A DNA stretch of 43,071 nucleotides from positions 1 through 43,071 of IMG/VR virus record IMGVR_UViG_3300042374_000765; one strand, given 5' to 3'. The stretch's first letter is position 1. Every line of letters begins with the position of its first letter. Shown piece after piece: positions 5,975 to 38,664 of this stretch. A program made the translations under genes and the position numbers. The stretch is from a virus. The notes beneath the pieces are model-generated. The model had not been told where the DNA came from and did no database searches. It saw only the letters and a list, made by a program, of their open reading frames with translations.

Positions 5975-6226
5975 TTAGCACCGAGGTCGACTATCTTTCG
6001 GGTCAACTCTGCCCGATTTCAAAGGGCCGCCATCGTGAATCGATTGCAATTCCGCTTGGTGTTCCGGTGTTCCTTGGCTTGGGTCGATGTCGTGCTTGAA
6101 CACCAACGCCAAATGGCGTTGGATCATAGCCGATTGTCGGCTGTTGAGAGTCCCCGGTTCCTCCGGCGTGACTCCACTCATCTCAAAGTAGCCCTGCAAC
6201 CAAAAGCAAAATTCAGACGCTTTCAT
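5975..6226 (-). CDS. Small soluble phage protein, 83 aa
   Basis: The N-terminus (MKASEFCFWLQGYFE) followed by a segment like QSAMIQRHLALVFKHD resembles a small soluble protein seen in many phages, of unknown function. It is the only clearly non-membrane product in this run. The start overlaps the stop of the 51-residue upstream gene (ATGA). Confidence 0.6.
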   Translation of the reverse strand: MKASEFCFWLQGYFEMSGVTPEEPGTLNSRQSAMIQRHLALVFKHDIDPSQGTPEHQAELQSIHDGGPLKSGRVDPKDSRPRC

Positions 6227-6378
6227 CTACCACACTCCGATGCAAAATAGGTCGCCAAATCTACTATTTTCCAAATCGCCAAAACGGGAATCGAGATAAC
6301 CGCGAGCCACGTAAGCAAAGCTGGAATCCACAGCAGTGTGCCGCAGATTGCGTACAACAGTCGCCCGTCGTCTTTCAT
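6223..6378 (-). CDS. Small membrane protein, 51 aa
   Basis: ATG 6378 to TGA 6223. A hydrophobic core (LLWIPALLTWLAVISIPVLA) spans the middle, probably one or two membrane passes. ATGA overlaps join it to the genes on both sides. No homologue recognised. Confidence 0.55.
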   Translation of the reverse strand: MKDDGRLLYAICGTLLWIPALLTWLAVISIPVLAIWKIVDLATYFASECGR

Positions 6379-6533
6379 AATCGCCCCCTCAACCAGTCAA
6401 GCACGTAAGCCGCACCGAGAGTGATGCCGTAGATCAAACCGAACAACGCAAGCAACGCCAGAGGCAGCAATCCGATGAAGAACCAAATGGCTACGCCAGT
6501 CCAAACCCAGTCCCACATGATGCCTGCAATCAT
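6375..6533 (-). CDS. Small membrane protein, 52 aa
   Basis: ATG 6533 to TGA 6375. It is almost entirely hydrophobic (VAIWFFIGLLPLALLALFGL), probably two short membrane helices, ending LRGRL. ATGA coupled at both ends. No homologue recognised. Confidence 0.55.
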   Translation of the reverse strand: MIAGIMWDWVWTGVAIWFFIGLLPLALLALFGLIYGITLGAAYVLDWLRGRL

Positions 6534-6670
6534 TTACCACGCCCCCCGATTAAATAGCCTACGTAGGCACTGACTGTCGCAACCACCGCCAAGAATGCCC
6601 CCACGCCGAAAGGCCCTGCCCAAAGGACAAACTGAACGATGTACCAAGTGATTAGTCCGATTTCGCTCAT
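6530..6670 (-). CDS. Small membrane protein, 46 aa
   Basis: ATG 6670 to TGA 6530, with two hydrophobic segments separated by a Gly/Pro turn (VLWAGPFGVGAFLAVVATV). It starts one base after the upstream stop and overlaps the next start (ATGA). Function unknown. Confidence 0.55.
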   Translation of the reverse strand: MSEIGLITWYIVQFVLWAGPFGVGAFLAVVATVSAYVGYLIGGRGK

Positions 6671-6892
6671 TTACCAAACTCCTGCTAAATGCCCACAAGC
6701 GTACCCAGCCAGCAACAACACAGCGATTGGCAGCAACACCACCACCGCGAGGCAGCACATCGCAAAGTAAAACGCACAGAGGTAGCTGAAATCTTCCCAA
6801 GACTCAGGCAACCAAGCGAACCACGGATTCGATTCGATCCGAACTGCTTCCGCCCTCGATGCTTTTATGAAGTCGCCGATTAGGTTAATCAT
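6671..6892 (-). CDS. Membrane protein, 73 aa
   Basis: ATG 6892 is chosen over 6901 because it gives the ATGA overlap used throughout this operon. An amphipathic N-terminal half is followed by a long hydrophobic stretch (CCLAVVVLLPIAVLLLAGY). Function unknown. Confidence 0.55.
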   Translation of the reverse strand: MINLIGDFIKASRAEAVRIESNPWFAWLPESWEDFSYLCAFYFAMCCLAVVVLLPIAVLLLAGYACGHLAGVW

Positions 6893-7071
6893 TTGCCGCA
6901 CTTCTCACAGACGGGTTCAGGGTGCAACGCCTCGAACCTATCGAGGCGTTGGTCCAACTCATGGAGTCCAGAAATCGCGTAGATACCAAAGGCAGTCAAA
7001 ACTGCCCACAGAACAGTCCCAATGATGTACAGAGCTTTGATGTCGCTTGTGTTGGCTTCGGTGGGGGTCAT
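6889..7071 (-). CDS. Single-span membrane protein with C-terminal CxxC, 60 aa
   Basis: One transmembrane helix (ALYIIGTVLWAVLTAFGIYA) is followed by a helical segment and a terminal CEKCGK. The CxxC may bind metal or form a disulphide. A strong hairpin (6925-6935/6941-6951) lies in the coding sequence. ATGA coupled to its neighbour. Confidence 0.55.
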   Translation of the reverse strand: MTPTEANTSDIKALYIIGTVLWAVLTAFGIYAISGLHELDQRLDRFEALHPEPVCEKCGK

Positions 7072-9424: not shown

Positions 9425-9807
9425 TTTATCCAGAAGCCTTCGAGAGATGGTACGAACGTCACAGCCTCCTGCGAAGGCAGGAGGCTTATGAGCAGTGGCT
9501 CCGAGAGGAGTACGACGCGAAGCGATCACGACGCAAGAAGAAGGGTAAGAAGGCCAAGCCGAAGAAAGTCAACTACCACGAATACATACGTTCGCAGGAT
9601 TGGATAAACAAGTCGAGGAAGTGGCGGAAGAAAACGAAAGCCTGCGAGAAGTGTGGCAGTGCCAAAGAACTCCAATGCCATCACAAGCACTATCGAACTT
9701 TAGGCAGGGAACGTCGAGAAGATATTCTGGTAGTATGCCGAACTTGTCATTGTAAATTGCATGGTGTCGAAGAATTTGTCGACAAAACACAGAAGCCTTC
9801 GGCGTAG
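9421..9807 (+). CDS. HNH homing-type endonuclease, 128 aa
   Basis: The C-terminal half contains CEKCGS, the HNH core CHHKHYRTLG, then CRTCHCKLH, giving the zinc-stabilised beta-beta-alpha metal nuclease with paired Cys. A basic Lys/Arg-rich segment precedes it, probably for DNA binding. GTG 9421 overlaps the previous stop and has AAGGAG upstream. Free-standing HNH genes in phages are usually mobile. Apart from a 10-bp hairpin at 9463-9472/9477-9486, most of this gene (9490-9800) lacks the dense inverted repeats of its neighbours, which fits recent arrival. Confidence 0.85.
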   Translation: MIYPEAFERWYERHSLLRRQEAYEQWLREEYDAKRSRRKKKGKKAKPKKVNYHEYIRSQDWINKSRKWRKKTKACEKCGSAKELQCHHKHYRTLGRERREDILVVCRTCHCKLHGVEEFVDKTQKPSA

Positions 9808-9851
9808 AACCGAGGCAGAGTCAAAACATCCCACAACTTTCGGAGGAAACC

Positions 9852-10079
9852 ATGCCACTGTATCACTTACGTTTATCGCCTAAAACGCAACGACGGTATG
9901 ACCAAACACGCGAAGTCGTAGTTCGTGCCAAAGACGAGGGAGAGGCTCGCTCTCTCGCGGCTACTCGCAGAGGCGATGAAGGCGTAGAGGTATGGCTTGA
10001 CGAGAAGCAAAGCACCTGCGAAAAACTACAAGTGCGGGGCAAAAGCGTTGTTATTTGTGTGGACTATTACGGATCGTAA
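9852..10079 (+). CDS. Hypothetical protein, 75 aa
   Basis: A good ribosome-binding site (CGGAGG) precedes ATG 9852. The protein looks like a small alpha/beta domain (VVVRAKDEGEARSLAA is typical of small phage proteins) ending CVDYYGS. Function unknown. Confidence 0.6.
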   Translation: MPLYHLRLSPKTQRRYDQTREVVVRAKDEGEARSLAATRRGDEGVEVWLDEKQSTCEKLQVRGKSVVICVDYYGS

Positions 10080-10100
10080 CTTACGAACAAGGGCAAAATT

Positions 10101-11213
10101 ATGAGCATTGAAAATGCGACCGTCACCGGGTGGCGTCCCGTCACCCGGCAGGATTTGATTGATCTGGCAAACGGCGGCGAGCCGCAAAAGGCTCGCTTCC
10201 GCGACCTCCTTCCACAAATGTGGCGAGAGCGTTACCTTTTCGGATTCGAGTCAGACGGCTCGAATATCAGATACATCGAAGGAGATGCGTCTTGGAGGGG
10301 CAGAACCGTCCGATGGCGATACTGCGAAATCAAGACGCAGGTACTCCGAGATCCGAAGTTTTCGGATCTCGACAACGGGCCGATTGAGTGCATGATCTAT
10401 CCAGACGGAGAACACGAAAGACCCCAAAAAGGCATTTTGGTGGGGATGCACCACAACCCCGCCAACAAGCGCAACACAACCGGTATGGAATACACAACCA
10501 AATGGCTGTACCAAAAAGACGACCCGAAAGCCAGTGTTTCCTTTCGATGGCATGTCAAGGTCGTCGACAAGTCCCCAGATCCCATCAAGGCCACCGAGCC
10601 TGCTTCGCAGGCTCCGGAACCCGAACAGACTTCGACCGGTTGGCGTTCGCCAACCGTCGAAGATCTCAAGGACGGCCCAATCGCGTGCGAAGTACGCGAT
10701 TGCTATAAGGACGAATGGACATCAGATATTTTACAAAACATTGGTTTCGAATTGGAGTACCCCTATAGGTGTCGGACTCTCAACTGGCAATACTGCCGAA
10801 TCAAGGTCACCGAGCCTGCTTCGCAGGCTCCGAAACCCGAACAGACTTCGACCGGTTGGCGAACGCCAACCGTCGAAGATCTCAAGGACGGCCCAATCGA
10901 GTGCGAAGTACGCGATTATGAGAAAGAAAGATGGACATTAGGTATTCTACGCAAAATTGACTACAGATCGGAGTACCCCTATAGGGGTTTCGCATGGTGG
11001 AAACAATGCCGAATCAAGGTCACCGAGCCTGCTTCGCAGGCTCGGTTCCGCGAGGTTGACACAGGCGACGAAGGCAAGCAAGTGGAGTTTTTGGATGAAC
11101 GAACCGGTGAGTTCGTCGCTGGAGTGCTTGTAAGATTCGCCAACAGGAGTGGTTTTATGCTACCGGTAGACCAAGACGGGGTCATACATATGTATGCCCG
11201 AATTCACAGGTAA
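10101..11213 (+). CDS. Repeat-domain protein of unknown function, 370 aa
   Basis: The protein contains at least two near-identical modules (about 70 residues each, between residues 165 and 310), each running from TEPASQAP through TGWR.PTVEDLKDGPI, CEVRD and EYPYR to CRIKV. A more divergent copy forms the N-terminus (TGWRPVTRQDL ... YCEIK). The PVEAR/CEVRD-W-I/L-Y-C-I pattern also occurs in the protein at 18837, suggesting a shared small beta-rich domain. No catalytic motif. Modules are joined by Pro/Glu linkers. Confidence 0.65.
   Translation: MSIENATVTGWRPVTRQDLIDLANGGEPQKARFRDLLPQMWRERYLFGFESDGSNIRYIEGDASWRGRTVRWRYCEIKTQVLRDPKFSDLDNGPIECMIYPDGEHERPQKGILVGMHHNPANKRNTTGMEYTTKWLYQKDDPKASVSFRWHVKVVDKSPDPIKATEPASQAPEPEQTSTGWRSPTVEDLKDGPIACEVRDCYKDEWTSDILQNIGFELEYPYRCRTLNWQYCRIKVTEPASQAPKPEQTSTGWRTPTVEDLKDGPIECEVRDYEKERWTLGILRKIDYRSEYPYRGFAWWKQCRIKVTEPASQARFREVDTGDEGKQVEFLDERTGEFVAGVLVRFANRSGFMLPVDQDGVIHMYARIHR
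10593..11040 (+). repeat. Tandem 216/213-bp coding repeat
   Basis: Units begin at 10593, 10809 and 11022 with accgagcctgcttcgcaggc; the third is truncated after the first bases. The 5' half of each unit is almost identical while the 3' half diverges. Each unit start is a perfect hairpin (gagcctgc/gcaggctc, loop ttc), suggesting duplication by hairpin-assisted slippage or recombination. Confidence 0.85.
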
Positions 11214-14068: not shown

Positions 14069-16486
14069 ATGGCTACCAAACACAAGCTGTTCCCATACCA
14101 AGAACAAGGCGTGGACTTTATGACCAAAGTTCACGGCGGGATCTTGCTCGCAGACGAGCAAGGTCTAGGAAAACAACAACCTTGGTACTCATTAGTAATG
14201 ACCGACAAGGGATGGGTTCCAATAGGCCACCTACGGATTGGAGATAAGGTCGTCGGATCAAACGGCGACTTTACCTCAGTCACGGGACATTTTCCGCAAG
14301 GCGTAAAAGAAGTCTACAGACTCACGTTTAGTGATGGCTCTACCTGTGAGGCGGGGCCGGAGCATTTGTGGGCAATGGACTACTGGAAAGGCGGAAAAGC
14401 AAAAACCAGAGTGGTCAAGACCACTCTGGAGTTCCTCGACGATCTCGAAACAACCAAGAAAACTTACTATCTTCCGCTGCTCACAAATCCTTTTGTGGGC
14501 GTACAGACGCAATCCGAGCTACCAGTAGATCCGTATTTCCTTGGGTGCTTGATAGCAAATGGAAGTTTGAGCGGTAGGCAGGTAGTGCTGACTGTGGGTA
14601 CAGTAGATTGGCCTTGTGTGCAACAGCGATTGTCTGGTGATGCGACCGCGACCGGGAATGTATTCCAAGGTAATGTCGAGACGCGAGGCACTATAACTCG
14701 CATAGGGTATAGAGTAGCACTAAGGGATTCCATAGAGCAACTCGAACTCAACCGCAAGAGCGCAGGTAAATTCATACCCAAAGAATACCTAGAAGCACCT
14801 ACAGAAGATCGAATAGCTCTTTTGCAAGGATTGATGGATTGTGACGGCAGCGTAAGCAAGACTCGCAACAGATTAACCTACTCTACGATTTCCCCTAAGT
14901 TGGGTAGAGATGTGGTGACCCTTGTTCAAAGTCTAGGCGGGGTGGCGACACTACACCAGTACGATAGGACACACGAAGGAAAACCAGTGGAGTTCTGCGT
15001 CTGTTTGCGACTTCCGGTAGGTATTCGGCCTTTCAACGCGATTCGCAAGGCCGGTAGGTATAACCCAGGTCCAAGGGCAGTGCCTACTAGAAGGCTGGTT
15101 AAAATCGAACGCTTAGGGACACCAGAGCCTTCGTATTGCATCAGCGTGGCCGCTGAGGACAAGCTGTATGTGACAGATCAGTACATACTGACGCACAACA
15201 CCGCACAAGTCGCGACTTTGGCTGCTCGCCAAAGTCTCTGGCCCCTATTGATCGTCTGCCCAGCTTCCCTAAAGGGAAACTGGCAGCGCGAACTCAAAAT
15301 GTGGGCTGATGCCGACTCGCTGGTCGTCGAGGGCAAGTCGCTTGCGACTCTGCCCGACGAACTGCCCAAGGCGGTAATTGTCAACTACGACATCCTCTAC
15401 GACCAGCGGCCATTGCTTGGCCGCTATCAGTGGAAGTGCATCGCCTTCGACGAAGTACACAACCTCAGCAACCGAGCCAGCAAGCGGACCAAGGCGGCTA
15501 AGTACCTTAGCCGCCTGACGACCAAGGTGATCGGAATGTCAGGCACGCCGGTGATGAACCGGCCTGCCGACTTCTGGCCGATTTTGAACATCATCCGACC
15601 GGAACTGTTCCCCGCTTGGCAGGCTTACGCGACTCGCTACTGCGAGCCTCGTAAGACACGTTGGGGATGGGAACACAAGGGCGCGACCAACTTGGGGGAA
15701 CTCCATGAGAAGATCAAGCCGTTCATGCTCAGGAGACTCAAGGAGGACGTACTCGACCTCCCCGAGAAGAAGATGATCGTCGTCCCGTTGCACTTGGACG
15801 ACCGAAGCGACCTCGACGCCGCTGAGGCCGACTTCATGGGATGGCTGGCTCAGAACAGCAAGTACGGGAGCGTCACCAGCGCGCAGAAAGCCGAAGCCGT
15901 TACACGGCTCGGCATTCTGCTCAGGCTTACGAGCCGACTCAAAGCTCGCGCCGTGGTGGATTGGTCACGGAAGTTCTTCCGTGACAATCCTAAAGAGAAG
16001 TTGATCCTTTTTGCGGTGCATACGCAAATGGTGGACGTTCTCAAGCGTAGAATCTTGCCGGAGGAGAACGTCGTCGTCATCGACGGCTCGACTCCGACGA
16101 AGAAACGACAGGGCATTGTGGATCGGTTCCAGACCGATCCACAATGCAGACTTTTGGTTGGGAACATCAAGGCAGCGGGGGTCGGCTTGACGCTTACAGC
16201 GGCAAGCACGATTGCCAACGCCGAGATGTGGTGGACACCTGCGGTGATGGCCCAAGGGGCAGATCGCGTTCACCGAATCGGCCAGAAGGAAACCTGCGAC
16301 ATTTACTACCTCGTCGTGCCAGATACGGTCGAAGAACGTATATGCAGGGCGATTCAGACCAAGCAACAGGTTGCGAACAGCATCGTCGATGGCCGACAGG
16401 CCGCGACGATGCCTGTGTTGGATTTACTTTTATCAGAAACAGGAGGACTACTCAGTGGCAAGCGACCCCACAAAACTAAGCACTAG
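14069..16486 (+). CDS. SNF2-family DEAD/H helicase interrupted by an intein, 805 aa precursor
   Basis: The precursor has N-extein residues 1-35, an intein at 36-377 and a C-extein at 378-805. Spliced, the ATPase (about 463 aa) reads DEQGLGK-TAQVA across the junction, the usual SNF2 Walker A. Further motifs are DEVH (motif II), MSGTPVMNRP (motif III) and GADRVHRIGQ (motif VI). SNF2 proteins are dsDNA translocases; phage versions are linked to replication, recombination or anti-defence roles. The intein sits exactly between the P-loop Lys and Thr, so unspliced protein cannot bind ATP. A 15-bp-arm hairpin occurs at 16113-16127/16133-16147. Confidence 0.9.
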   Translation: MATKHKLFPYQEQGVDFMTKVHGGILLADEQGLGKQQPWYSLVMTDKGWVPIGHLRIGDKVVGSNGDFTSVTGHFPQGVKEVYRLTFSDGSTCEAGPEHLWAMDYWKGGKAKTRVVKTTLEFLDDLETTKKTYYLPLLTNPFVGVQTQSELPVDPYFLGCLIANGSLSGRQVVLTVGTVDWPCVQQRLSGDATATGNVFQGNVETRGTITRIGYRVALRDSIEQLELNRKSAGKFIPKEYLEAPTEDRIALLQGLMDCDGSVSKTRNRLTYSTISPKLGRDVVTLVQSLGGVATLHQYDRTHEGKPVEFCVCLRLPVGIRPFNAIRKAGRYNPGPRAVPTRRLVKIERLGTPEPSYCISVAAEDKLYVTDQYILTHNTAQVATLAARQSLWPLLIVCPASLKGNWQRELKMWADADSLVVEGKSLATLPDELPKAVIVNYDILYDQRPLLGRYQWKCIAFDEVHNLSNRASKRTKAAKYLSRLTTKVIGMSGTPVMNRPADFWPILNIIRPELFPAWQAYATRYCEPRKTRWGWEHKGATNLGELHEKIKPFMLRRLKEDVLDLPEKKMIVVPLHLDDRSDLDAAEADFMGWLAQNSKYGSVTSAQKAEAVTRLGILLRLTSRLKARAVVDWSRKFFRDNPKEKLILFAVHTQMVDVLKRRILPEENVVVIDGSTPTKKRQGIVDRFQTDPQCRLLVGNIKAAGVGLTLTAASTIANAEMWWTPAVMAQGADRVHRIGQKETCDIYYLVVPDTVEERICRAIQTKQQVANSIVDGRQAATMPVLDLLLSETGGLLSGKRPHKTKH
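14174..15199 (+). mobile_element. Class 3 intein with LAGLIDADG endonuclease, 342 aa
   Basis: The element begins with Gln rather than Cys, Ser or Ala and ends THN before an extein Thr. The class 3 WCT triad is present: Trp (HLW, intein residue 66), Cys (YCIS, residue 322) and Thr just before the terminal His-Asn (residue 340). Class 3 inteins start splicing from the internal Cys. Two LAGLIDADG motifs (FLGCLIANGS and LLQGLMDCDG) indicate a homing endonuclease. The segment is almost free of the hairpins that fill both exteins. Confidence 0.85.
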
Positions 16487-16742
16487 GGCTTTGACCGTGA
16501 ACCCACTGCCTGAGCAGTTGGTCACGGGGATCAAGACGCTGGCAATCCAACTGGATTGCACAGTCGAGGATCTTATGGCGGTGGTACTGCAAAGAGCTTT
16601 GGACGAAGGCCAAAAGCTCTTTGTGCCGGTGCAACGCCTCAAGAAAGCCAGGAAACAGGAAATCGAGGATCGCAGGAAACTGCGATCTTCGTTGGAACAA
16701 CTACAACCGAAACTCAAACAATTGGAAGCTCAAAATGGGTAA
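16455..16742 (+). CDS. Hypothetical protein, possible ribbon-helix-helix with coiled-coil tail, 95 aa
   Basis: GTG 16455 has AGGAGG eight bases upstream and overlaps the helicase 3' end by 32 bases. The pattern NPLPEQLVTGIKTLAIQL...VEDLMAVVLQRALDEG resembles small ribbon-helix-helix regulators; the rest is a Lys/Glu/Gln-rich helix. It could bind DNA. Identification is weak. Confidence 0.55.
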   Translation: MASDPTKLSTRALTVNPLPEQLVTGIKTLAIQLDCTVEDLMAVVLQRALDEGQKLFVPVQRLKKARKQEIEDRRKLRSSLEQLQPKLKQLEAQNG

Positions 16743-17190
16743 CACCGTCGACCAAGAATACGAAGATTTCGTCAAAACGCGAGTCAAAGATCCGACAGTC
16801 ATTGCAGATAGCATTCATCGCAACCCTCGAACTGCGGGACTACTCCACGCTGTGTTGGGCATCTCCGGAGAAGCCGGAGAGCTTGTGGATGCGGTGAAGA
16901 AAGCCGTCATCTACGAGAAAGGACTAGACATCCAAAACGTCATCGAGGAACTCGGGGACTTGGAGTTCTACATGGAGATGCTGCGTCAGGAGATTGGAGT
17001 TCCCCGAGACGTAATCGTATACTACAACATCCTCAAGCTCAAAAAGAGATACCCCGACACGTACACCGACCAGCACGCGATTGAACGCAAGGACAAGACC
17101 GATGCCACTGATTATACGCCGGTGCTTACCCAAAGATTCACCATCGGCAAGTTTGAACGCAAGGACAAAACCGATGCCACTGATTCCTGA
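16735..17190 (+). CDS. MazG-like nucleotide pyrophosphohydrolase, 151 aa
   Basis: LHAVLGISGEAGELVDAVKKA followed by IEELGDLEFYMEML gives the EExxE/ExxD-type metal-binding helices of the all-alpha NTP pyrophosphatase superfamily. Phage enzymes may cleave dUTP, noncanonical dNTPs or (p)ppGpp-related substrates. The last 30 residues repeat the peptide ERKDKTDATD because of a DNA duplication. The ATG overlaps the previous stop. Confidence 0.8.
   Translation: MGNTVDQEYEDFVKTRVKDPTVIADSIHRNPRTAGLLHAVLGISGEAGELVDAVKKAVIYEKGLDIQNVIEELGDLEFYMEMLRQEIGVPRDVIVYYNILKLKKRYPDTYTDQHAIERKDKTDATDYTPVLTQRFTIGKFERKDKTDATDS
17081..17185 (+). repeat. 33-bp direct repeat at the mazG/next-gene junction
   Basis: 17081-17113 and 17153-17185 are identical except for one base (72-bp period). 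Each copy encodes ERKDKTDATD in the mazG frame and also contains ATGCCACTGATT, so the start codon region of the following gene is duplicated. The downstream copy is probably the used start. Confidence 0.9.
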
Positions 17191-21429: not shown

Positions 21430-22198
21430 CTCCTCCCGTCGCTACCCAATCGACCAAGTGGTCGAACCGAAGCTCGAAGCCCTCCGCTGGTTCGTTCTAT
21501 GCGTGGAATTGGGCAGTGCCCAAGCAGCCAGCAAGAAGCTCAAGATGGGCAACACCGCGATCATTCCCAACAGCAACCGCAAGATGGAATCCATCTTGCA
21601 GGTCAAGTTGTTCGACTCCTACCGCAAGCCCACGCCTGACGGCATGGTCTTGTACAAGCACGCCAAGAAGGTGCTTGCGGCCCACCGCAAGCTCCTGCGA
21701 GAAATGAAGAAGCTAGGCAACGCCCACAAGGTCCGGCCACAGGTGGCCGTCCATGTGGAGCGATGGCTGAGCATCGTTACCCCGAATCTGAGCGATCTTC
21801 TGTCCGACAAGTATCAGATCACCAAGGTGGTCTGCTACGACAGTTTCAGCGATTGGCTCGCTACGCGAGCCAAGCCGGGACACGACGTATTCGTCTCGGC
21901 CAGTCCCAACGCTGAGGGGGAAGTCATCCAAGCATTGCCTGTGGTTCTGTTCGGAACAGATCCGAACAGAATCATGGCAGGGGATTGGTTGGGCTGGGAA
22001 TCGTACTCCGAGGAACAGGTTGCAACCTTGGCAAACCCTGTCGAAATGGCGTATGCCATTTCGACAGGTATCGGATCGGGCTACATGCCTGCTGAATGGA
22101 TTCCCTGCGAATTAGCAGGGAATCTGCCTATTCTGGAACAAAATACCGGAAAATTGGTCAAGGTGACCGCCTTTAGGCGGTCACCGGACGTAGAATAA
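21422..22198 (+). CDS. LysR-type HTH protein, 258 aa
   Basis: LEALRWFVLCVELGSAQAASKK and the following KMESILQVKLFDSYRKPTPDGMVLYKHAKKVL match the LysR winged helix-turn-helix (FVxVxExGSxxxAAxxL ... LExxLGxxLFxRxxxxxxxTxxG). The rest may be a diverged effector domain. LysR regulators are abundant in bacteria but unusual in phages. It overlaps the helicase end by eight bases. Its last 59 bases are duplicated downstream at 22497-22555. Confidence 0.75.
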   Translation: MTSSSRRYPIDQVVEPKLEALRWFVLCVELGSAQAASKKLKMGNTAIIPNSNRKMESILQVKLFDSYRKPTPDGMVLYKHAKKVLAAHRKLLREMKKLGNAHKVRPQVAVHVERWLSIVTPNLSDLLSDKYQITKVVCYDSFSDWLATRAKPGHDVFVSASPNAEGEVIQALPVVLFGTDPNRIMAGDWLGWESYSEEQVATLANPVEMAYAISTGIGSGYMPAEWIPCELAGNLPILEQNTGKLVKVTAFRRSPDVE

Positions 22199-22555
22199 AT
22201 TTGAGAGGCAGGGACAAAATGACAACAACATGGCAAAGAGCCCAACAGGATGACGCAAGGATGATCGCTGACTTGGCGACTCGCGACACGTCTGAGGCCG
22301 ATTGGAAGATTGGCATAATTCAAGAAAGAATGCAAAGGCGACAAGCCTTTGCATTGAATCACAACACAAAAATCTCGCCGCAAGTGTGTCGTTGCGGCGA
22401 GATCGTAGACCGATTGGTTCCTATTTATGGGACGTGCGACGAGTGCGTGACGGATGCCGTAGCCAGCGACGAAATATCGCAGATTGAGTTTTAGGGCAAA
22501 ATACCGGAAAATTGGTCAAGGTGACCGCCTTTAGGCGGTCACCGGACGTAGAATA
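22139..22555 (+). repeat. 59-bp exact direct repeat flanking a one-gene cassette
   Basis: 22139-22197 and 22497-22555 are identical over 59 bases, 358 bases apart. The first copy is the 3' end of the LysR-like gene; the second is non-coding and begins just after the stop of the enclosed small gene. Each copy holds a perfect 10-bp hairpin (ggtgaccgcc/ggcggtcacc). The layout suggests the enclosed gene was inserted with duplication of the target end. Confidence 0.95.
22219..22494 (+). CDS. Small zinc-finger protein, 91 aa
   Basis: CRCGEIVDR ... GTCDECV gives four cysteines in a spacing like the DksA/TraR zinc finger, after a helical N-terminal half. The similarity is partial. It is the only gene inside the 59-bp direct repeats, so it is probably a recently acquired accessory gene. 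ATG 22219 is chosen; a TTG at 22201 is in frame. Confidence 0.55.
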   Translation: MTTTWQRAQQDDARMIADLATRDTSEADWKIGIIQERMQRRQAFALNHNTKISPQVCRCGEIVDRLVPIYGTCDECVTDAVASDEISQIEF

Positions 22556-22972: not shown

Positions 22973-23043
22973 GGACCGATAGCTCAGTGGCAGAGCAGCA
23001 CCCTTCTAAAGTGCAGGTCGCCGGTTCAATTCCGGCTCGGTCC
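22973..23043 (+). tRNA. tRNA-Arg (anticodon UCU)
   Basis: A full 71-base cloverleaf is present: acceptor ggaccga/tcggtcc (7 bp), D stem gctc/gagc, anticodon arm with loop CTTCTAA (anticodon TCT), five-base variable loop, and T arm gccgg-TTCAATT-ccggc. The base pair closing the anticodon loop is C/A mismatched. No CCA is encoded. It decodes AGA/AGG arginine codons. Confidence 0.9.
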
Positions 23044-23108
23044 TCTTGCGCCGAACCCAACGTGGGTTCGGTGCTGTTTCTGGGTTAAACATAGAAAGAG
23101 GGAATCCA

Positions 23109-26648: not shown

Positions 26649-27809
26649 ATGGCATTGTCATCGAAGAAAACCAGAGAAGAAGCGGCCAAAGGCCCTGCTG
26701 GCAGGACTCTCCGAATCCCGCAAGGCATCAAGACTCTCAAGGTCGACAAGGCGGGTACGTTCAAGATGGTCATCTTGCCGTACACTGTGCCAGTGGGTGC
26801 GAAGCACCCGGTGGCGAAGGACGGCGACTTGCACTACGCCCGAGACTACTACGTCCACAACAACCTCGGGTCGGACAACAAGGGATACGCGATCTGCCCG
26901 AGGTTGACCAAGGGCGGCAAGTGCCCTATTTGCGAAGGCATCAACTCTGCTCTTGAGACGGGCGAATTGACCAAGGAGACGGCCAAGAGGTACTATGCCA
27001 AGCAACGCACACTGTACACAGTGTGGTTGCCTGAGCAGAACCAAGTCGTGCTGTTCGATCACAGCTTCTTTTCGTTCTCGAAGCAGTTGAACATCAGCGT
27101 CTCGGCCAAGGTTGCGATCCCAGGTCGCGAGTGGATTGACTACTTCGCTGACCCCGCCGAAGGCGCGTTCATCTACGTCACCTTCGCTGAAAAGACTTTT
27201 CCCGGTGGGAAGTGTTACGAGGCCGTCTCGTTCGATTTCGACCGACACGGCGGCGTTCCTGATGCGATCTTGGCCCAAGCCTTGCAACTCGATAACCTGC
27301 TGGTTATCGAGAGTGCAGAGACTTTGCGAGCCAAGTTTTACGACGAAGATGCGGACGACGCTTCGGTGTCCGAGGACACCGAAGTGGTGGCTACGGTTTC
27401 GGCGGTGGTGCAACCACCGCCAACGCCGAAACCTTTGGACATTCCGAAGCCGATTGCCCCTGAGCCCAAGGTGCAAAGGCCGGTCGTCACGACGACCTTG
27501 CCTCCTGCTGCCTCGGCTTCTGCGTTTCTCGACGCTGCCGTCTCGGTTCCTGTGGCTGCTTGGCCTGCCAAGGGTGACGTGGCATACCACGTCACCTTGG
27601 GTGAAGTCAAGATCCACAAGAACACCAACGGGGTAATCAGCGTCTTTGATAAAGACGATGAACCCCACAAGGTCAACTTGAAGGATCTGTCGCGAGAGCC
27701 ACAGGCTCAAGCGACAGGGACCACGCCCGAAGTCGCACCAGAACCAGCACCAGCCTCCGCTGGTTCTGGTTCCGACGAGGCGTGGGATTCGGAATGGCCC
27801 GATCAGTGA
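26649..27809 (+). CDS. Gp32-like single-stranded DNA-binding protein, 386 aa
   Basis: Residues 60-100 contain CPRLTKGGKCPICEG, a T4 gp32-like zinc site, within an OB-type core (about 30-230). A Pro/Ala-rich linker follows, and the protein ends in the acidic SDEAWDSEWPDQ, the protein-interaction tail expected of SSBs. The insert around residues 300-345 (GDVAYHVTLGEVKI) is unusual. A hairpin (27796-27803/27809-27816) spans the stop codon. Confidence 0.8.
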   Translation: MALSSKKTREEAAKGPAGRTLRIPQGIKTLKVDKAGTFKMVILPYTVPVGAKHPVAKDGDLHYARDYYVHNNLGSDNKGYAICPRLTKGGKCPICEGINSALETGELTKETAKRYYAKQRTLYTVWLPEQNQVVLFDHSFFSFSKQLNISVSAKVAIPGREWIDYFADPAEGAFIYVTFAEKTFPGGKCYEAVSFDFDRHGGVPDAILAQALQLDNLLVIESAETLRAKFYDEDADDASVSEDTEVVATVSAVVQPPPTPKPLDIPKPIAPEPKVQRPVVTTTLPPAASASAFLDAAVSVPVAAWPAKGDVAYHVTLGEVKIHKNTNGVISVFDKDDEPHKVNLKDLSREPQAQATGTTPEVAPEPAPASAGSGSDEAWDSEWPDQ

Positions 27810-27952: not shown

Positions 27953-28608
27953 AGTCCCGACGTTTGCAGTACCACCACTAACCGAGGACAAGCACAATGA
28001 AAGAGTTTGTAGCGTTTCCGAAAATGCCTCGAATGTTTCGAGAGTGCATCATTACGGAAAAGATTGACGGAACCAACGCCTGTGTCTGCATCACCGAAGA
28101 TGGTCAGTTTTTGACCGGCAGTCGGTCGCGATGGATCACGCCCCAAGACGACAATTTCGGCTTCGCGCGGTGGGCCGAGGCCCACCGCGATGAATTGATG
28201 AAACTAGGCCCTGGTACGCACTTCGGAGAATGGTGGGGCAGTGGAATCCAGCGAGGGTATGGCTTGACCAACGGAGAAAAGCGATGGAGTCTTTTCAATG
28301 TGGCAAGGTGGTGTTTACCTGACCAAGAGCCAAAACGAATTGCAACCGCAGACCCTCGAATTGAGAAGTACCAACAGCGATTGCCTTCGTGCTGCGGTTT
28401 GGTTCCTATTTTGTATCAGGGCTTGTTCGACACTGCCCGAGTGTACGAAGCTCTTAAAGAACTACAAATGGGAGGTAGCCACGCGAGAGTCGGATTCATG
28501 CGGCCCGAAGGCATCATCTGCTACCACGTTGCTGGAAACTTTGGCTTCAAAGCGACGATTGAAAAAGATCAAGAACACAAATCGTCATAGTCCCGACGTT
28601 TGCAGTAC
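27953..28608 (+). repeat. 20-bp direct repeat flanking the RNA ligase gene
   Basis: agtcccgacgtttgcagtac occurs at 27953-27972, just upstream of the RNA ligase ATG, and at 28589-28608, starting in its stop codon. The ligase gene is thus a repeat-bounded cassette, like the 22139-22555 cassette. The repeats might instead be matching promoter elements for the ligase and the next small gene. Confidence 0.85.
27997..28590 (+). CDS. ATP-dependent RNA ligase (Rnl2-like), 197 aa
   Basis: Nucleotidyltransferase motifs are all present: motif I EKIDGTN (Lys 22 adenylated), FGEWWG (motif III, 76-81), EGIICY (motif IV, 171-176) and FKATIEK (motif V, 184-190). The enzyme seals nicked RNA 3'-OH/5'-PO4 ends, typically repairing tRNAs cut by host defences. 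At 197 residues it has the catalytic domain and no obvious C-terminal domain. It is preceded by a structured RNA and flanked by 20-bp repeats. Confidence 0.85.
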   Translation: MKEFVAFPKMPRMFRECIITEKIDGTNACVCITEDGQFLTGSRSRWITPQDDNFGFARWAEAHRDELMKLGPGTHFGEWWGSGIQRGYGLTNGEKRWSLFNVARWCLPDQEPKRIATADPRIEKYQQRLPSCCGLVPILYQGLFDTARVYEALKELQMGGSHARVGFMRPEGIICYHVAGNFGFKATIEKDQEHKSS

Positions 28609-32010: not shown

Positions 32011-32258
32011 GCATTCGACTCACCCGACGACAATGGTTGGACTCCAACAAGAAGCCGGAGGATTCGCGTTCCCCTGAGGAACGCAAAGCCTCCAAGAAGA
32101 ATAACCCAACTACCCAAGCGAGGAAGGCCCCCCGACAAGTTCGCTTTCGCAACTTTGTCCAAGCCGTCGAGCAGCAGTGGGACGGTCATGAGGTTATCAA
32201 AGACCCGCGAGTGCTGGAAGCAGTCGCGAGGCGAGCTAGTTTGCGGAGTGTCGAATAA
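32007..32258 (+). CDS. Hypothetical basic protein, 83 aa
   Basis: Rich in Arg/Lys, starting MSIRLTRRQWLD, with no recognised domain; possibly nucleic-acid binding. ATGA overlap with the nuclease stop and a one-base overlap with the next gene. Confidence 0.6.
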   Translation: MSIRLTRRQWLDSNKKPEDSRSPEERKASKKNNPTTQARKAPRQVRFRNFVQAVEQQWDGHEVIKDPRVLEAVARRASLRSVE

Positions 32259-32869
32259 TGCCCAAGAAAAAAGCCACAACCGAGGCTCCGGTCAAGAAGA
32301 AACGCAAGGGCGATCCGAAGAAAGGCTCCGCTTTCGAGCGAGACTTCGCTCGAAAGCTATCCCTATGGTGGAGCGAAGGTAAAGCCGACGACTGGTTCTG
32401 GCGGCTGGGTGGCTCGGGAGGCCGAGCCACCAACCGGGCCAAGTCGGGTAGGAACACAGCCAACGGCTACGGGGACATTGCTGCGCAATGTCCCGAAGCA
32501 CAGAAGTTGTTGAACATCGTGACCTTTGAACTCAAGCGAGGGTACAACAGCACGACAATCCAAGACCTGATTGACAAGCCCAACGGGCCGAATCAGATGC
32601 GGGACTTCATCGAGCAAGCGAAGCGTTCCGCTTCGCTTGCGGGTACTCCGTTTTGGATTCTGGTTCTCAAGAGGGATTTGCGAGAAGAATTGATCGTGAC
32701 CAACCTGTCGGGCGGCAGCATCGCTGCCTCGATATTTCCTGGGCTACGGCTTGACTTACACTCCGACGAGAATGTTTTCCAAGCGTCTGTTTTTTGGAGC
32801 GATTGGAGACGAGATTTCTTCAAAAAAGAGGCGAAGAACCACTACATACTGTATGGAGTTCCACAATGA
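32258..32869 (+). CDS. PD-(D/E)XK nuclease, putative resolvase, 203 aa
   Basis: GSAFERDFARKLSLWW, then NGYGDIAA (metal Asp) and VTFELKRGYN (ExK) follow the PD-(D/E)XK order. Its place among recombination genes suggests a Holliday-junction resolvase or repair nuclease. The N-terminal 30 residues are Lys-rich and probably bind DNA. Confidence 0.7.
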   Translation: MPKKKATTEAPVKKKRKGDPKKGSAFERDFARKLSLWWSEGKADDWFWRLGGSGGRATNRAKSGRNTANGYGDIAAQCPEAQKLLNIVTFELKRGYNSTTIQDLIDKPNGPNQMRDFIEQAKRSASLAGTPFWILVLKRDLREELIVTNLSGGSIAASIFPGLRLDLHSDENVFQASVFWSDWRRDFFKKEAKNHYILYGVPQ

Positions 32870-35093: not shown

Positions 35094-36268
35094 CCAAGTC
35101 GTTGCCCGTCGTCCCGCTTTGCGGGACGTGTAAGGCCGACCGAAGTTGTCGCCATCCGAAGCAGACTTGGCCGGGTAACCCGGCCAAAGTCGTCTTTGTG
35201 GTAGACAAAGCCGGGGATGATGCCCCGAACGCCCTGCTAGACGGCCAATTTGGCCGTCTAGGGACCGTTTGTAGTCGGGTAGGCGTCACACTTGACGCCT
35301 ACCCAAAAGTGCCAGCAGCGGCCTGCCCAGGGGCCTCAAACGAGGCTTGGCGGCATTGCCAACCGCTCGTCGCGAGCGAATTGGCACGCCTCAACCCCGA
35401 AGTCGTCATTCCCTACGGCCCGAGGGCTACTCAGTCGGTCATTGGCCGATACTGGCAGACCCCCGCCGAGCTTTACGACCGGTGGTACGGCGCGGTGATC
35501 CCTTGCAGGGATCTCAACGCTTGGATCTGTCCGGTGGGCCTGATGGGTGAACACAAACGGATGCTCGACGTGTCGAGCATGTTTGAGTACCAACAACTGC
35601 GGGATGCGATGCGGATATCGGGCCGCCCGTGGCCCGATGGGTGCGTCCCCTTGGAGAGCCGAATCCGGCAGATCTACGACCCCCAAGAGATCAACACCGA
35701 ACTGGACAAGATCACCCAGACGGCACAGATCGCTGCGTTCGACTATGAAGCCACTGGGCTAAAGCCCGAGTGGGACACCCAGATCATCGTTTCGATGGCG
35801 GTGGCCTACGCCGCCGGGGACGAACTGCATTGCATTTCGTTCCCGGTGTACACCGACACGCATGATGCGATTCGGCGATTCTTGGCGTCCGACATCAGGA
35901 AGATCGCCGCCAACATGAAGTTCGAGGATCGGTGGAGCCGATCCAAGCTGGGGGTTCAGGTTCGCCGGTGGTGGTGGGACACGATGCAAGCCGCGCATTG
36001 GGAGAATCCCAACAGCGGCGTGACGGGCTTGAAGTTTCAGGCGTTTGCGAAGTTGGGCGTGCCCTACTTCGCGGGGGACGTGGAATCCTATTTCGAGTCC
36101 GAAACAAATTCTCAAAGAAATAAGATACTTTCGGTTCCCACGCCGAAGCTCCTGACGTATAACGGGATGGATGCCATAGTCGAGCTTCTGCTTGCTTCGC
36201 AGCAGATGGTCGAGAATGGCATAATCAAGGAACACTTCGTACCTAGTAAATACCTACCGAGGAAATGA
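35066..36268 (+). CDS. Uracil-DNA glycosylase / 3'-5' exonuclease fusion, 400 aa
   Basis: Residues 1-190 resemble family-4 UDG: four possible Fe-S cysteines, then AACPGASNEAWRHCQPLVASEL and VVIPYGPRATQSVIG. Residues 215-400 are a PolA-type proofreading exonuclease with FDYEATG (D226/E228), NMKFEDRW (D288) and YNGMD (Y365/D369). One protein could thus remove uracil and proofread for the exonuclease-less polymerase. The usual UDG catalytic segment near the N-terminus is altered, so glycosylase activity is uncertain. Confidence 0.8.
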   Translation: MPLFASAKLTKSLPVVPLCGTCKADRSCRHPKQTWPGNPAKVVFVVDKAGDDAPNALLDGQFGRLGTVCSRVGVTLDAYPKVPAAACPGASNEAWRHCQPLVASELARLNPEVVIPYGPRATQSVIGRYWQTPAELYDRWYGAVIPCRDLNAWICPVGLMGEHKRMLDVSSMFEYQQLRDAMRISGRPWPDGCVPLESRIRQIYDPQEINTELDKITQTAQIAAFDYEATGLKPEWDTQIIVSMAVAYAAGDELHCISFPVYTDTHDAIRRFLASDIRKIAANMKFEDRWSRSKLGVQVRRWWWDTMQAAHWENPNSGVTGLKFQAFAKLGVPYFAGDVESYFESETNSQRNKILSVPTPKLLTYNGMDAIVELLLASQQMVENGIIKEHFVPSKYLPRK

Positions 36269-36657
36269 TGTCTGAGCAGAAAAAAGAATGGAAAGTCGGA
36301 GACGAACTTGCAATCCACCACGGAGGTCGCGGAGGGAACTACACCATCCACAAAATCACCAAGATATCCAAGACTGGCCGGATAACTTTAGGTGATGATT
36401 TGTATATTCTCAACTCAAATTTAAGGATTCGAGGTTTAGATGCTTGGAGTCAGACTCACTCCTCGGCTTATCCTGTAACAGATACGATTCGACACGGAAT
36501 GGAAAGATGCCGCAAGGAAACCAAAGTCGCAAGAATTCGCAGGGACTTACACCAGAGCCTCCTCACCGACGAGGAACTGGACCAGATCATCGCCATCAAC
36601 CAAGCGGCCAACCAGAGGGAGGAAGCCAAACATGCTCACAGACATCAGGCTGACTAA
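36265..36657 (+). CDS. Hypothetical protein, 130 aa
   Basis: WKVGDELAIHHGGRGGNYTI followed by KITKISKTGRITLGD gives an N-terminal SH3/KOW-like barrel; the rest is helical and His/Ala-rich. Overlaps both neighbours. The related barrel at 33870 suggests a family of such accessory proteins in this phage. Confidence 0.6.
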   Translation: MMSEQKKEWKVGDELAIHHGGRGGNYTIHKITKISKTGRITLGDDLYILNSNLRIRGLDAWSQTHSSAYPVTDTIRHGMERCRKETKVARIRRDLHQSLLTDEELDQIIAINQAANQREEAKHAHRHQAD

Positions 36658-37762
36658 CTTTCAGGCTCACCGCGACCGCCACTTGACGTTCGTTCCGAAC
36701 GTCAACGTGATCGTCGGACCCACAAACGCAGGCAAGTCATCCGTCTTTCGTGCAATCCGGTGGCTTGTGGAACACAAGCCGATCACCGGATTGCAGACGT
36801 TCGACGAGCCGCATACCGAAGTGACCATCGCCTCGGATCGAGGCGAGGTCACTCGGTTCAAGCACCCGACCGAGGGATACGGCTACAAGGCCGCAGGTCA
36901 GACCTTCGTGGCGTGCGCCACGAAGCAACCGTCCGAAGTCCAAGCTACGCTTGGACTCTCGGAAATCAACCTGCAAGGCCAGCACGACGCCCCGTTCTTG
37001 CTGACCCTACCCCCCGGCCAGATGGCAAAGGAACTTAACCGCATCGTGGACTTGTCGATCATCGACAAGGCCAACGCGATGGCTGCGAGCAACGCGACTC
37101 GGACCAAAGGCGAACTCTCGGCGATGGAAACCATCGCCGAGAAGCAACAAGCCGAACTTGACCAGATCGCTTGGTTTCCAAGCGTTCTGGCTCAGTACGA
37201 GTCCCTAGTCGTCTACATGCAGGAATTGCAGCATAAGCAAAATCGATGCACGCTGCTGTCTGACAAGACGCAAGTAGTCGAAGCCTTGTCGCTCTCCTTG
37301 CAATCATTAGACAAACTGATACTCGACCTACAAGCCTTGGCCGATCAGGCCAAGGCTTTCGCCGACAAAAAGAATCGCCGAACGGCGATTCTTGCCGCAA
37401 CTGCCCCCTTGGCCGACGTGTCGGCCAAGATCAGTTTGGTTAATACTGTCGGATCAGGATTAGCAAAACTGAAAAAGCAGGGCGAGCAGATCGCAGCCAA
37501 GCGATCCCGCTTGGCTGCGATCCGACCAGTAGCCCAGCAACTAGCCGCCGTCAAGCCCATCCACGGGGACGTGGATGGGCTACTGGCAACAGGCAAGCGA
37601 CTCGCAGAGTCGCGAGCCAAGCAGTCGAAGTTGGAACGTGTGTTGAATAGCATAGCGGATTGGCAGGGGACTTACCTAGTCGCCTGCCAATCCGTCACCG
37701 AGTTAGAAACCAAAATCAAATTAGTGAGGGAAGTATGTCCGACTTGCAAAAAGCCCCTTTAG
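36632..37762 (+). CDS. Rad50/SbcC N-terminal half ending at the zinc hook, 376 aa
   Basis: DIRLTNFQAHRDRHLTF and Walker A GPTNAGKSS (29-37), then a Q-loop-like INLQGQHDAPFLLTL, open an SMC/Rad50 ATPase lobe. A long coiled coil follows and the protein ends in CPTCKKPL (Cys 369 and 372), the zinc hook. It stops there, instead of folding back into the descending coil. The second half is encoded beyond the Mre11 gene. The hook codons overlap the start of that gene. Confidence 0.85.
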   Translation: MLTDIRLTNFQAHRDRHLTFVPNVNVIVGPTNAGKSSVFRAIRWLVEHKPITGLQTFDEPHTEVTIASDRGEVTRFKHPTEGYGYKAAGQTFVACATKQPSEVQATLGLSEINLQGQHDAPFLLTLPPGQMAKELNRIVDLSIIDKANAMAASNATRTKGELSAMETIAEKQQAELDQIAWFPSVLAQYESLVVYMQELQHKQNRCTLLSDKTQVVEALSLSLQSLDKLILDLQALADQAKAFADKKNRRTAILAATAPLADVSAKISLVNTVGSGLAKLKKQGEQIAAKRSRLAAIRPVAQQLAAVKPIHGDVDGLLATGKRLAESRAKQSKLERVLNSIADWQGTYLVACQSVTELETKIKLVREVCPTCKKPL

Positions 37763-38664
37763 CCGTCTTGTGTTCCGATCTCCATTTGCGGGAAACCGCC
37801 CCGAGTGCCAGAGCCGAAAAGGACTGGTACGAGGTCATGGAGAACCATCTCAATGCTTTGGGAGATGCAGCGTACCGTTGTGGGAATGTTCCGATCATCT
37901 GCGCAGGTGACGTGTTCGACCGATGGAACCCATCTAGCGAACTCGTCCGATTCGCGATTCAACACCTACCCCAAATGTGGGCTATTCCCGGTCAGCATGA
38001 TCTCCGCTACCACGACTATGAGAGTAGGCTCCGAGGGGCCTACGGATGTCTGGTCGCTGCTGATGTCATTTATGACTTACCCGCAGGTACTTGGGACGGC
38101 GACATAGGTTTGCAAGTGTGGGCGATGCCTTGGGGTCGGTGGGAACCACCGACCGAAGCGGAAAGCCACCCCTTCAACGGCACTAAGCTGGCCTTCGACG
38201 GCATCAAGCTGGGAGTCCTCCACAAGTACGCTTGGAGCAACCAGTTCAACTGCCACGCCAAGGCCGAGGAGTCGTCTCGTTTCGAGCGACTCTACCCCAA
38301 CCTCGATGCCATGATTATCGGGGACAACCATATTCCTTGGATGCTACCCAACGTGATGAACCACGGGGGGTTCATCCCGCAGAACGCCGATCAGAAGTCC
38401 CTAGTGCCTCACTATGGACTTCTGATGTCTGATGGGACTATCGAGAGGCATCCCTACGACGTACCCGAGCCTGTGTGGCTAGAGTCGTGGCAGCCGCAGG
38501 TCGAGGATGCCAAGGTGGCATCCGAGGTCATCCAAGAGTTGCAAGACTTGCAACTCTCGGGAGACTCGTTCTTCGAAAACTTGGAGCGAGCCGTCGACGC
38601 CGCCGGATCGCAGACTGCCGTAATCCTCCGACAGATGATTACGGATCTCAAACAAAATGGCTGA
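37735..38664 (+). CDS. Mre11/SbcD-like nuclease, 309 aa
   Basis: The motifs CSDLHLRE (D15/H17), AGDVFDRW (D59), GQHD (86-89, in place of GNHD) and IGDNHIP form the Mre11 two-metal site. With Rad50 it processes DNA ends to feed recombination, like T4 gp47/gp46. ATG 37735 has GAGGG upstream and overlaps the zinc-hook codons of the Rad50 N-half by 28 bases. Confidence 0.85.
   Translation: MSDLQKAPLAVLCSDLHLRETAPSARAEKDWYEVMENHLNALGDAAYRCGNVPIICAGDVFDRWNPSSELVRFAIQHLPQMWAIPGQHDLRYHDYESRLRGAYGCLVAADVIYDLPAGTWDGDIGLQVWAMPWGRWEPPTEAESHPFNGTKLAFDGIKLGVLHKYAWSNQFNCHAKAEESSRFERLYPNLDAMIIGDNHIPWMLPNVMNHGGFIPQNADQKSLVPHYGLLMSDGTIERHPYDVPEPVWLESWQPQVEDAKVASEVIQELQDLQLSGDSFFENLERAVDAAGSQTAVILRQMITDLKQNG

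Follow-up and report, generated by a model that had tools for sequence, protein, structure and literature searches.

In the phage clade analysed here, short DNA hairpins are probably selected features of the genome, and an intein and other exchanged genes probably arrive with few of them and gain more later. The window, i.e., the whole stretch of DNA under analysis, is the 43,071-base IMG/VR virus record IMGVR_UViG_3300042374_000765; its clade comprises phages known from metagenomes alone, the relatives being metagenome fragments. Hairpins were counted when perfect and non-overlapping, with arms of at least 8 bp and loops of 2-10 bases. By this definition the window contains 232 hairpins (5.39 per kb) against 4-5 in dinucleotide-preserving shuffles, that is, about one short perfect DNA hairpin per 200 bases, genes included. 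The same measure gave 0.00 per kb in T7, 0.33 in lambda, and 0.42 in N4. About 30 relatives were found in IMG/VR scans (polymerase protein identity from 98% down to 66%), the intein being present in some of them. Hairpin density is 1.6-6.4 per kb in the clade, 0.46-0.7 per kb in the outgroup (L021-L023; 0.46 in the whole record G014), and 0-0.24 per kb in distant helicase relatives. The features of the window central to the analysis are as follows.

1-43071, no strand: array of 232 perfect short hairpins, arms of 8-15 bp, loops mostly of 2-6 bases
14069-14173, plus strand: N-extein of the SNF2-type helicase, with one hairpin (14143-14162)
14143-14162, no strand: N-extein hairpin with 8-bp arms, 11 bases 5' of the insertion site
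14174-15199, plus strand: predicted intein with a LAGLIDADG homing endonuclease, Gln1 ... His-Asn / Thr+1, hairpin-poor
14406-14429, no strand: the sole hairpin of the intein with arms of at least 8 bp (11-bp arms)
15200-16486, plus strand: C-extein with five hairpins (15214, 15405, 15492, 15964, and 16113)

The open reading frame 14069-16486 is an SNF2-type helicase gene (PF00176 match over residues 10-578) split by an insert of 342 residues (Q1 to N342; 1,026 bases) within the Walker A motif GLGK^T. Judged from its sequence, the insert is an intein with a LAGLIDADG homing endonuclease and is predicted to be self-splicing. It contains a LAGLIDADG domain (PF14528, E=5.8e-9) and is similar to the gp41-1 intein in its N-terminal part (E=8e-7); the first residue is Gln, and His-Asn at the end precedes Thr. 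The intein-splicing model PF14890 had no match in the three intein-bearing relatives searched, nor in a Pfam scan of the window gene. An intein occupies the same site in L057, L030, and L058, while the gene is uninterrupted in L027 and L028, whose C-exteins are 97.6% and 95.5% identical to that of the window. As the inteins of L057 and the window are 81% identical versus 96% for the C-exteins, and L027 and L028 lack the element, the intein moves independently of the gene. In L057 (9896-10000, compared with 14069-14173), the last approximately 35 bases of the N-extein share a block of changes with L030 and L031. This block has the appearance of a tract co-converted during homing, and it breaks the hairpin 14143-14162, which is intact in the intein-free L027 and has three mismatches in L057. 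No HNH (PF01844, PF13392) or additional LAGLIDADG elements were found in the clade records searched; consequently, no second, independent element was available to replicate the intein result.

The intein carries one hairpin with arms of at least 8 bp (four with arms of at least 6 bp) in 1,026 bases, and the exteins of the same gene carry six in 1,392 bases. All the hairpins that the initial annotation had listed for the intein and the C-extein were found again at the same positions; it had overlooked 15964-15985 (10-bp arms, C-extein) and the N-extein hairpin. Its claim of a hairpin-poor intein within a hairpin-saturated gene is not significant in the window alone (binomial p=0.13) but holds over the four orthologous inteins at this site: they contain 1, 0, 1, and 0 hairpins, their exteins contain 6, 7, 5, and 8, and pooling by distinct sites gives 1 versus 14 (p=0.003). 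The distant inteins L059-L061, from AT-rich phages, contain none.

The scarcity of hairpins in the intein exemplifies a general pattern of patchily distributed DNA. For each open reading frame (ORF) of ten clade genomes, presence or absence in the others was recorded wherever neighbouring genes permitted a judgement. With rising breadth of presence, hairpin density was 1.9, 2.0, 4.6, and 4.8 per kb, and a Poisson regression with genome and GC gave a rate ratio of 0.46 (z=-6.5) for patchy ORFs. Since ORFs are not independent between genomes, gene families were bootstrapped over nine genomes, giving a patchy-to-core ratio of 0.44 (95% CI 0.25-0.60), unchanged without the intein. Hairpin density is 5.24 per kb in genes shared with the hairpin-poor outgroup and 2.88 per kb in genes that the outgroup lacks. 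In the window alone, with the intein left out, the accessory effect is not significant (ratio 0.66, z=-1.7). Examples in the window are listed below.

16738-17190, plus strand: patchily distributed ORF, no hairpins
27997-28590, plus strand: ORF absent from all nine genomes in which its presence could be assessed, one hairpin
36265-36657, plus strand: patchily distributed ORF, no hairpins

A separate observation concerns two genes of more than 1,000 codons each in G007:C1 (31669-34761 and 36134-39673, in L077), which have 0.3 hairpins per kb against a genome mean of 2.7 and were perhaps recently exchanged.

Hairpins appear to be gained after arrival. The one in the intein (14406-14429) has 11 perfect base pairs in the window and 9 in L030; the L057 and L058 copies each contain two mismatches. 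As the palindrome is imperfect in two sister inteins, it was improved in situ, and the window copy differs from those of L057 and L058 in both arms, indicating that DNA acquired by the clade is being fitted with hairpins. With two outgroups for polarisation, the window lineage shows 31 gains against two losses among 34 ancestral hairpins, a polarity blurred by recombination between relatives. Both arms contributed substitutions to the gains, and most of these lay at third codon positions; only 4 of 22 were single-arm gains (about 5.9 expected at random). The proposed course is that such substitutions improve chance imperfect palindromes stepwise, the end product being perfect stems of about 8-11 bp, which purifying selection for pairing would then preserve, leaving the loops free to drift. 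On entry, the intein, which is mobile and present in only some members of the clade, would be hairpin-poor, as would other exchanged genes; both would acquire hairpins afterwards and would thus stand out until they had done so.

The initial annotation had proposed that resident DNA acquires hairpins slowly. The low density in patchy DNA, the excess of gains over losses, and the improvement in situ argue for acquisition after arrival, although the intein by itself is no proof. The related suggestion that the cell does not impose hairpins on all sequence fits the standing pattern; it missed that hairpins, once formed, are actively conserved. Density, proposed as a means of dating insertions, allows a coarse sorting. 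Across the breadth classes density rises in a step, not linearly, and with saturation at about 5 per kb and Poisson noise it can only separate old from young DNA; the twofold spread in hairpin content among clade lineages and the approximately tenfold gap to the outgroup rule out a uniform clock.

Conservation of pairing was assessed for hairpins perfect in both the window and the outgroup, along six sister branches with G012 as the outgroup (G011 for L006). Third-position changes affected 25 of 1305 sites in arms (1.9%), 14 of 178 in loops (7.9%), and 636 of 9497 elsewhere (6.7%). Third codon positions in arms thus evolve 3-4 times more slowly than elsewhere while loops are not slowed, so it is the paired bases that are constrained. 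A simpler comparison, the arm identity to relatives of hairpins picked in the window, is biased by that choice; the branch test was used in its place. Conservation of individual hairpins showed no correlation with their predicted stability.

Several other explanations have to be weighed against selection on pairing. Chance, i.e., one hairpin-poor 1-kb stretch in a clustered distribution, would be compatible with the p value of 0.13 against the intein's own exteins and with the frequency of equally poor 1,026-base sliding windows: 2.6% of positions for arms of at least 8 bp (no more than one hairpin), 1.3% for at least 7 bp, and 4.8% for at least 6 bp. Gaps of similar length also occur at 35638-36683, 9486-10347, and 6122-6925, so that the intein is not unique in the window. 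However, hairpins are just as scarce in the orthologous inteins, and other accessory genes show the same behaviour, which makes chance very improbable. Composition or protein constraint would make the intein poor through lower GC or its amino acids: GC is 0.499 in the intein and 0.571 in the C-extein, and density depends weakly on GC. Yet synonymous-codon shuffles expect the same for both (0.13 and 0.15 in the window; about 0.10-0.23 in intein or extein alike), and in each of the four genomes the C-extein exceeds this expectation (p=0.005, the minimum attainable with 200 shuffles), while none of the four inteins does so significantly. The contrast therefore survives the correction for composition that the initial annotation had called for. 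Moreover, relatives with GC of about 0.51 carry 4-5 hairpins per kb, and the accessory effect persists after GC correction, so we consider this explanation extremely improbable.

A mutational origin would have template switching between quasi-palindrome arms make and homogenise hairpins of no function, young DNA having undergone fewer such events. Template switching is a known process (PMC8604942, PMC7202029) and has been proposed for nematomorph mitochondrial DNA (PMC6649704), the intein hairpin did derive from a quasi-palindrome, and covarying blocks do occur (e.g., GAC/GTC to TCG/CGA at 27573). Nevertheless, the signature of one-arm copying, a multinucleotide change in a single arm, was not seen among the gained hairpins. 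Unbiased conversion further predicts near-neutral covariation of pairs joining two third codon positions (3:3), but in hairpins perfect in both genomes such pairs covary in 4.6% of cases versus a third-position divergence of 32%; the arms are thus not kept alike by free arm-to-arm conversion. Short branches, in turn, show 45 mismatched against 6 covarying pairs. A mutational origin is accordingly unlikely. Structure in mRNA, with hairpins selected in transcripts and the intein and new genes not tuned so far, would suit the window's coding regions, which contain 84% of hairpin centres (in all three codon phases), and the presence of GNRA-like loops. Against it, G.T mismatches, which would be compatible with G.U pairing, are no more frequent on the sense strand than A.C mismatches (47:46); an initial excess of 21:10, suggestive of RNA wobble, disappeared in this larger set. 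Loops of the types TNC (3.2x) and TNNC (3.6x), stable solely on the antisense DNA strand, are enriched at least as much as GNA (2.5x) and GNNA (2.4x) in pooled genomes that share hairpins, GNA/GNNA loops being favoured on either strand, also in single genomes. C(GNA)G triloops give small DNA hairpins unusual stability. We hold a role in mRNA to be quite unlikely. Arm conservation, gains through both arms, equal mismatches, and DNA-type loops together favour selection on DNA-level pairing over both mRNA structure and arm-copying. We infer that the driver is selection on single-stranded or cruciform DNA, to which mutational bias and protein constraint could add.

The window encodes an exonuclease, a primase, a DnaB-type helicase, a DNA polymerase, and a clamp loader, as well as a UvsX-like recombinase, a RusA-like resolvase, and Rad50/SbcC-like and SbcD-like proteins. 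The SbcC-like and SbcD/Mre11-like genes are adjacent (36632-38664); the SbcCD family comprises DNA hairpin cutters, and what this pair does in a genome so rich in hairpins merits attention. The RusA-like Holliday junction resolvase gene (32258-32869) likewise lies in a genome with many potential cruciforms. A single tRNA-Arg (tct) gene is present at 22973-23045. Regular spacing of the hairpins was ruled out, the gaps being nearly exponential in length save for short-range exclusion, and so was a shared arm motif (5-mer enrichment is mild, up to 3.4x, and a consensus is absent). The distribution of arm lengths is level between 7 and 11 bp and falls off steeply at 12, roughly one helical turn; longer stems would seem to bring no benefit. 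An identical 24-base hairpin occurs at 22162-22185 and 22520-22543, 358 bases apart, probably as a result of local duplication. An 8.1-kb piece of the window had no megablast match in the annotated phage collection, and a search for bacterial genomes with a related DNA polymerase gene found none.

In a wider reading, which we offer tentatively and rate at slightly less than even, natural selection maintains in this tailed phage clade a functional, genome-wide set of short DNA hairpins, a few hundred in number, free in sequence, and dispersed over the coding genome; mobile and exchanged DNA would have to be 'naturalised' by acquiring them, so that density would read residence time. Candidate roles are, for example, replication priming sites, single-strand protection, or a mark for self-recognition. 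Should a reader of the hairpins exist, it would belong to an undescribed DNA-structure-based system in phages. A clade with conserved hairpins in genes and relatives ranging from 0.5 to 6 per kb offers a natural test of why some genomes retain hairpins and others avoid them, and the intein and accessory genes serve as internal controls of young DNA that make mutation separable from selection.

A paper on such a phage clade was not found in searches of an open-access library, though one may exist elsewhere. Among known systems, phage helicase inteins with LAGLIDADG and a gp41-1-like splicing part share with the window intein the site in the ATP-binding motif, the homing endonuclease domain, the patchy presence, and apparently the intein ends; the window intein differs in starting with Gln, and PF14890 is unmatched in the three intein-bearing relatives searched. 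Hairpins of the N4 virion RNA polymerase promoters, whose extrusion needs G and A at the loop ends and a C:G closing pair (PMC4496689), are likewise small DNA hairpins with G...A loop ends, in N4 extruded from the duplex. However, N4 has few promoters of conserved sequence and a low density overall, while the clade has hundreds of hairpins of no common sequence throughout its genes. Quasi-palindrome template-switch mutations (PMC8604942, PMC7202029) also turn imperfect palindromes perfect, but through hallmark one-arm multinucleotide changes, which the phage gains lack. The nearest published case in the literature searched is that of the coding palindromes of nematomorph mitochondria, where many perfect inverted repeats of up to 284 bp occur in protein-coding genes in all codon phases, the authors suggesting template switching or conversion (PMC6649704, PMC10380579). 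Both have small genomes, perfect coding repeats far above chance, an excess of perfect over imperfect arms, and a dynamic turnover of repeats. The clade, in contrast, consists of dsDNA phages with arms of 8-15 bp at 2-6 hairpins per kb. Arm identity by conversion of the nematomorph type was not observed in them: the arms of shared hairpins are nearly frozen across the third-position divergence given above, and new hairpins are built via both arms.
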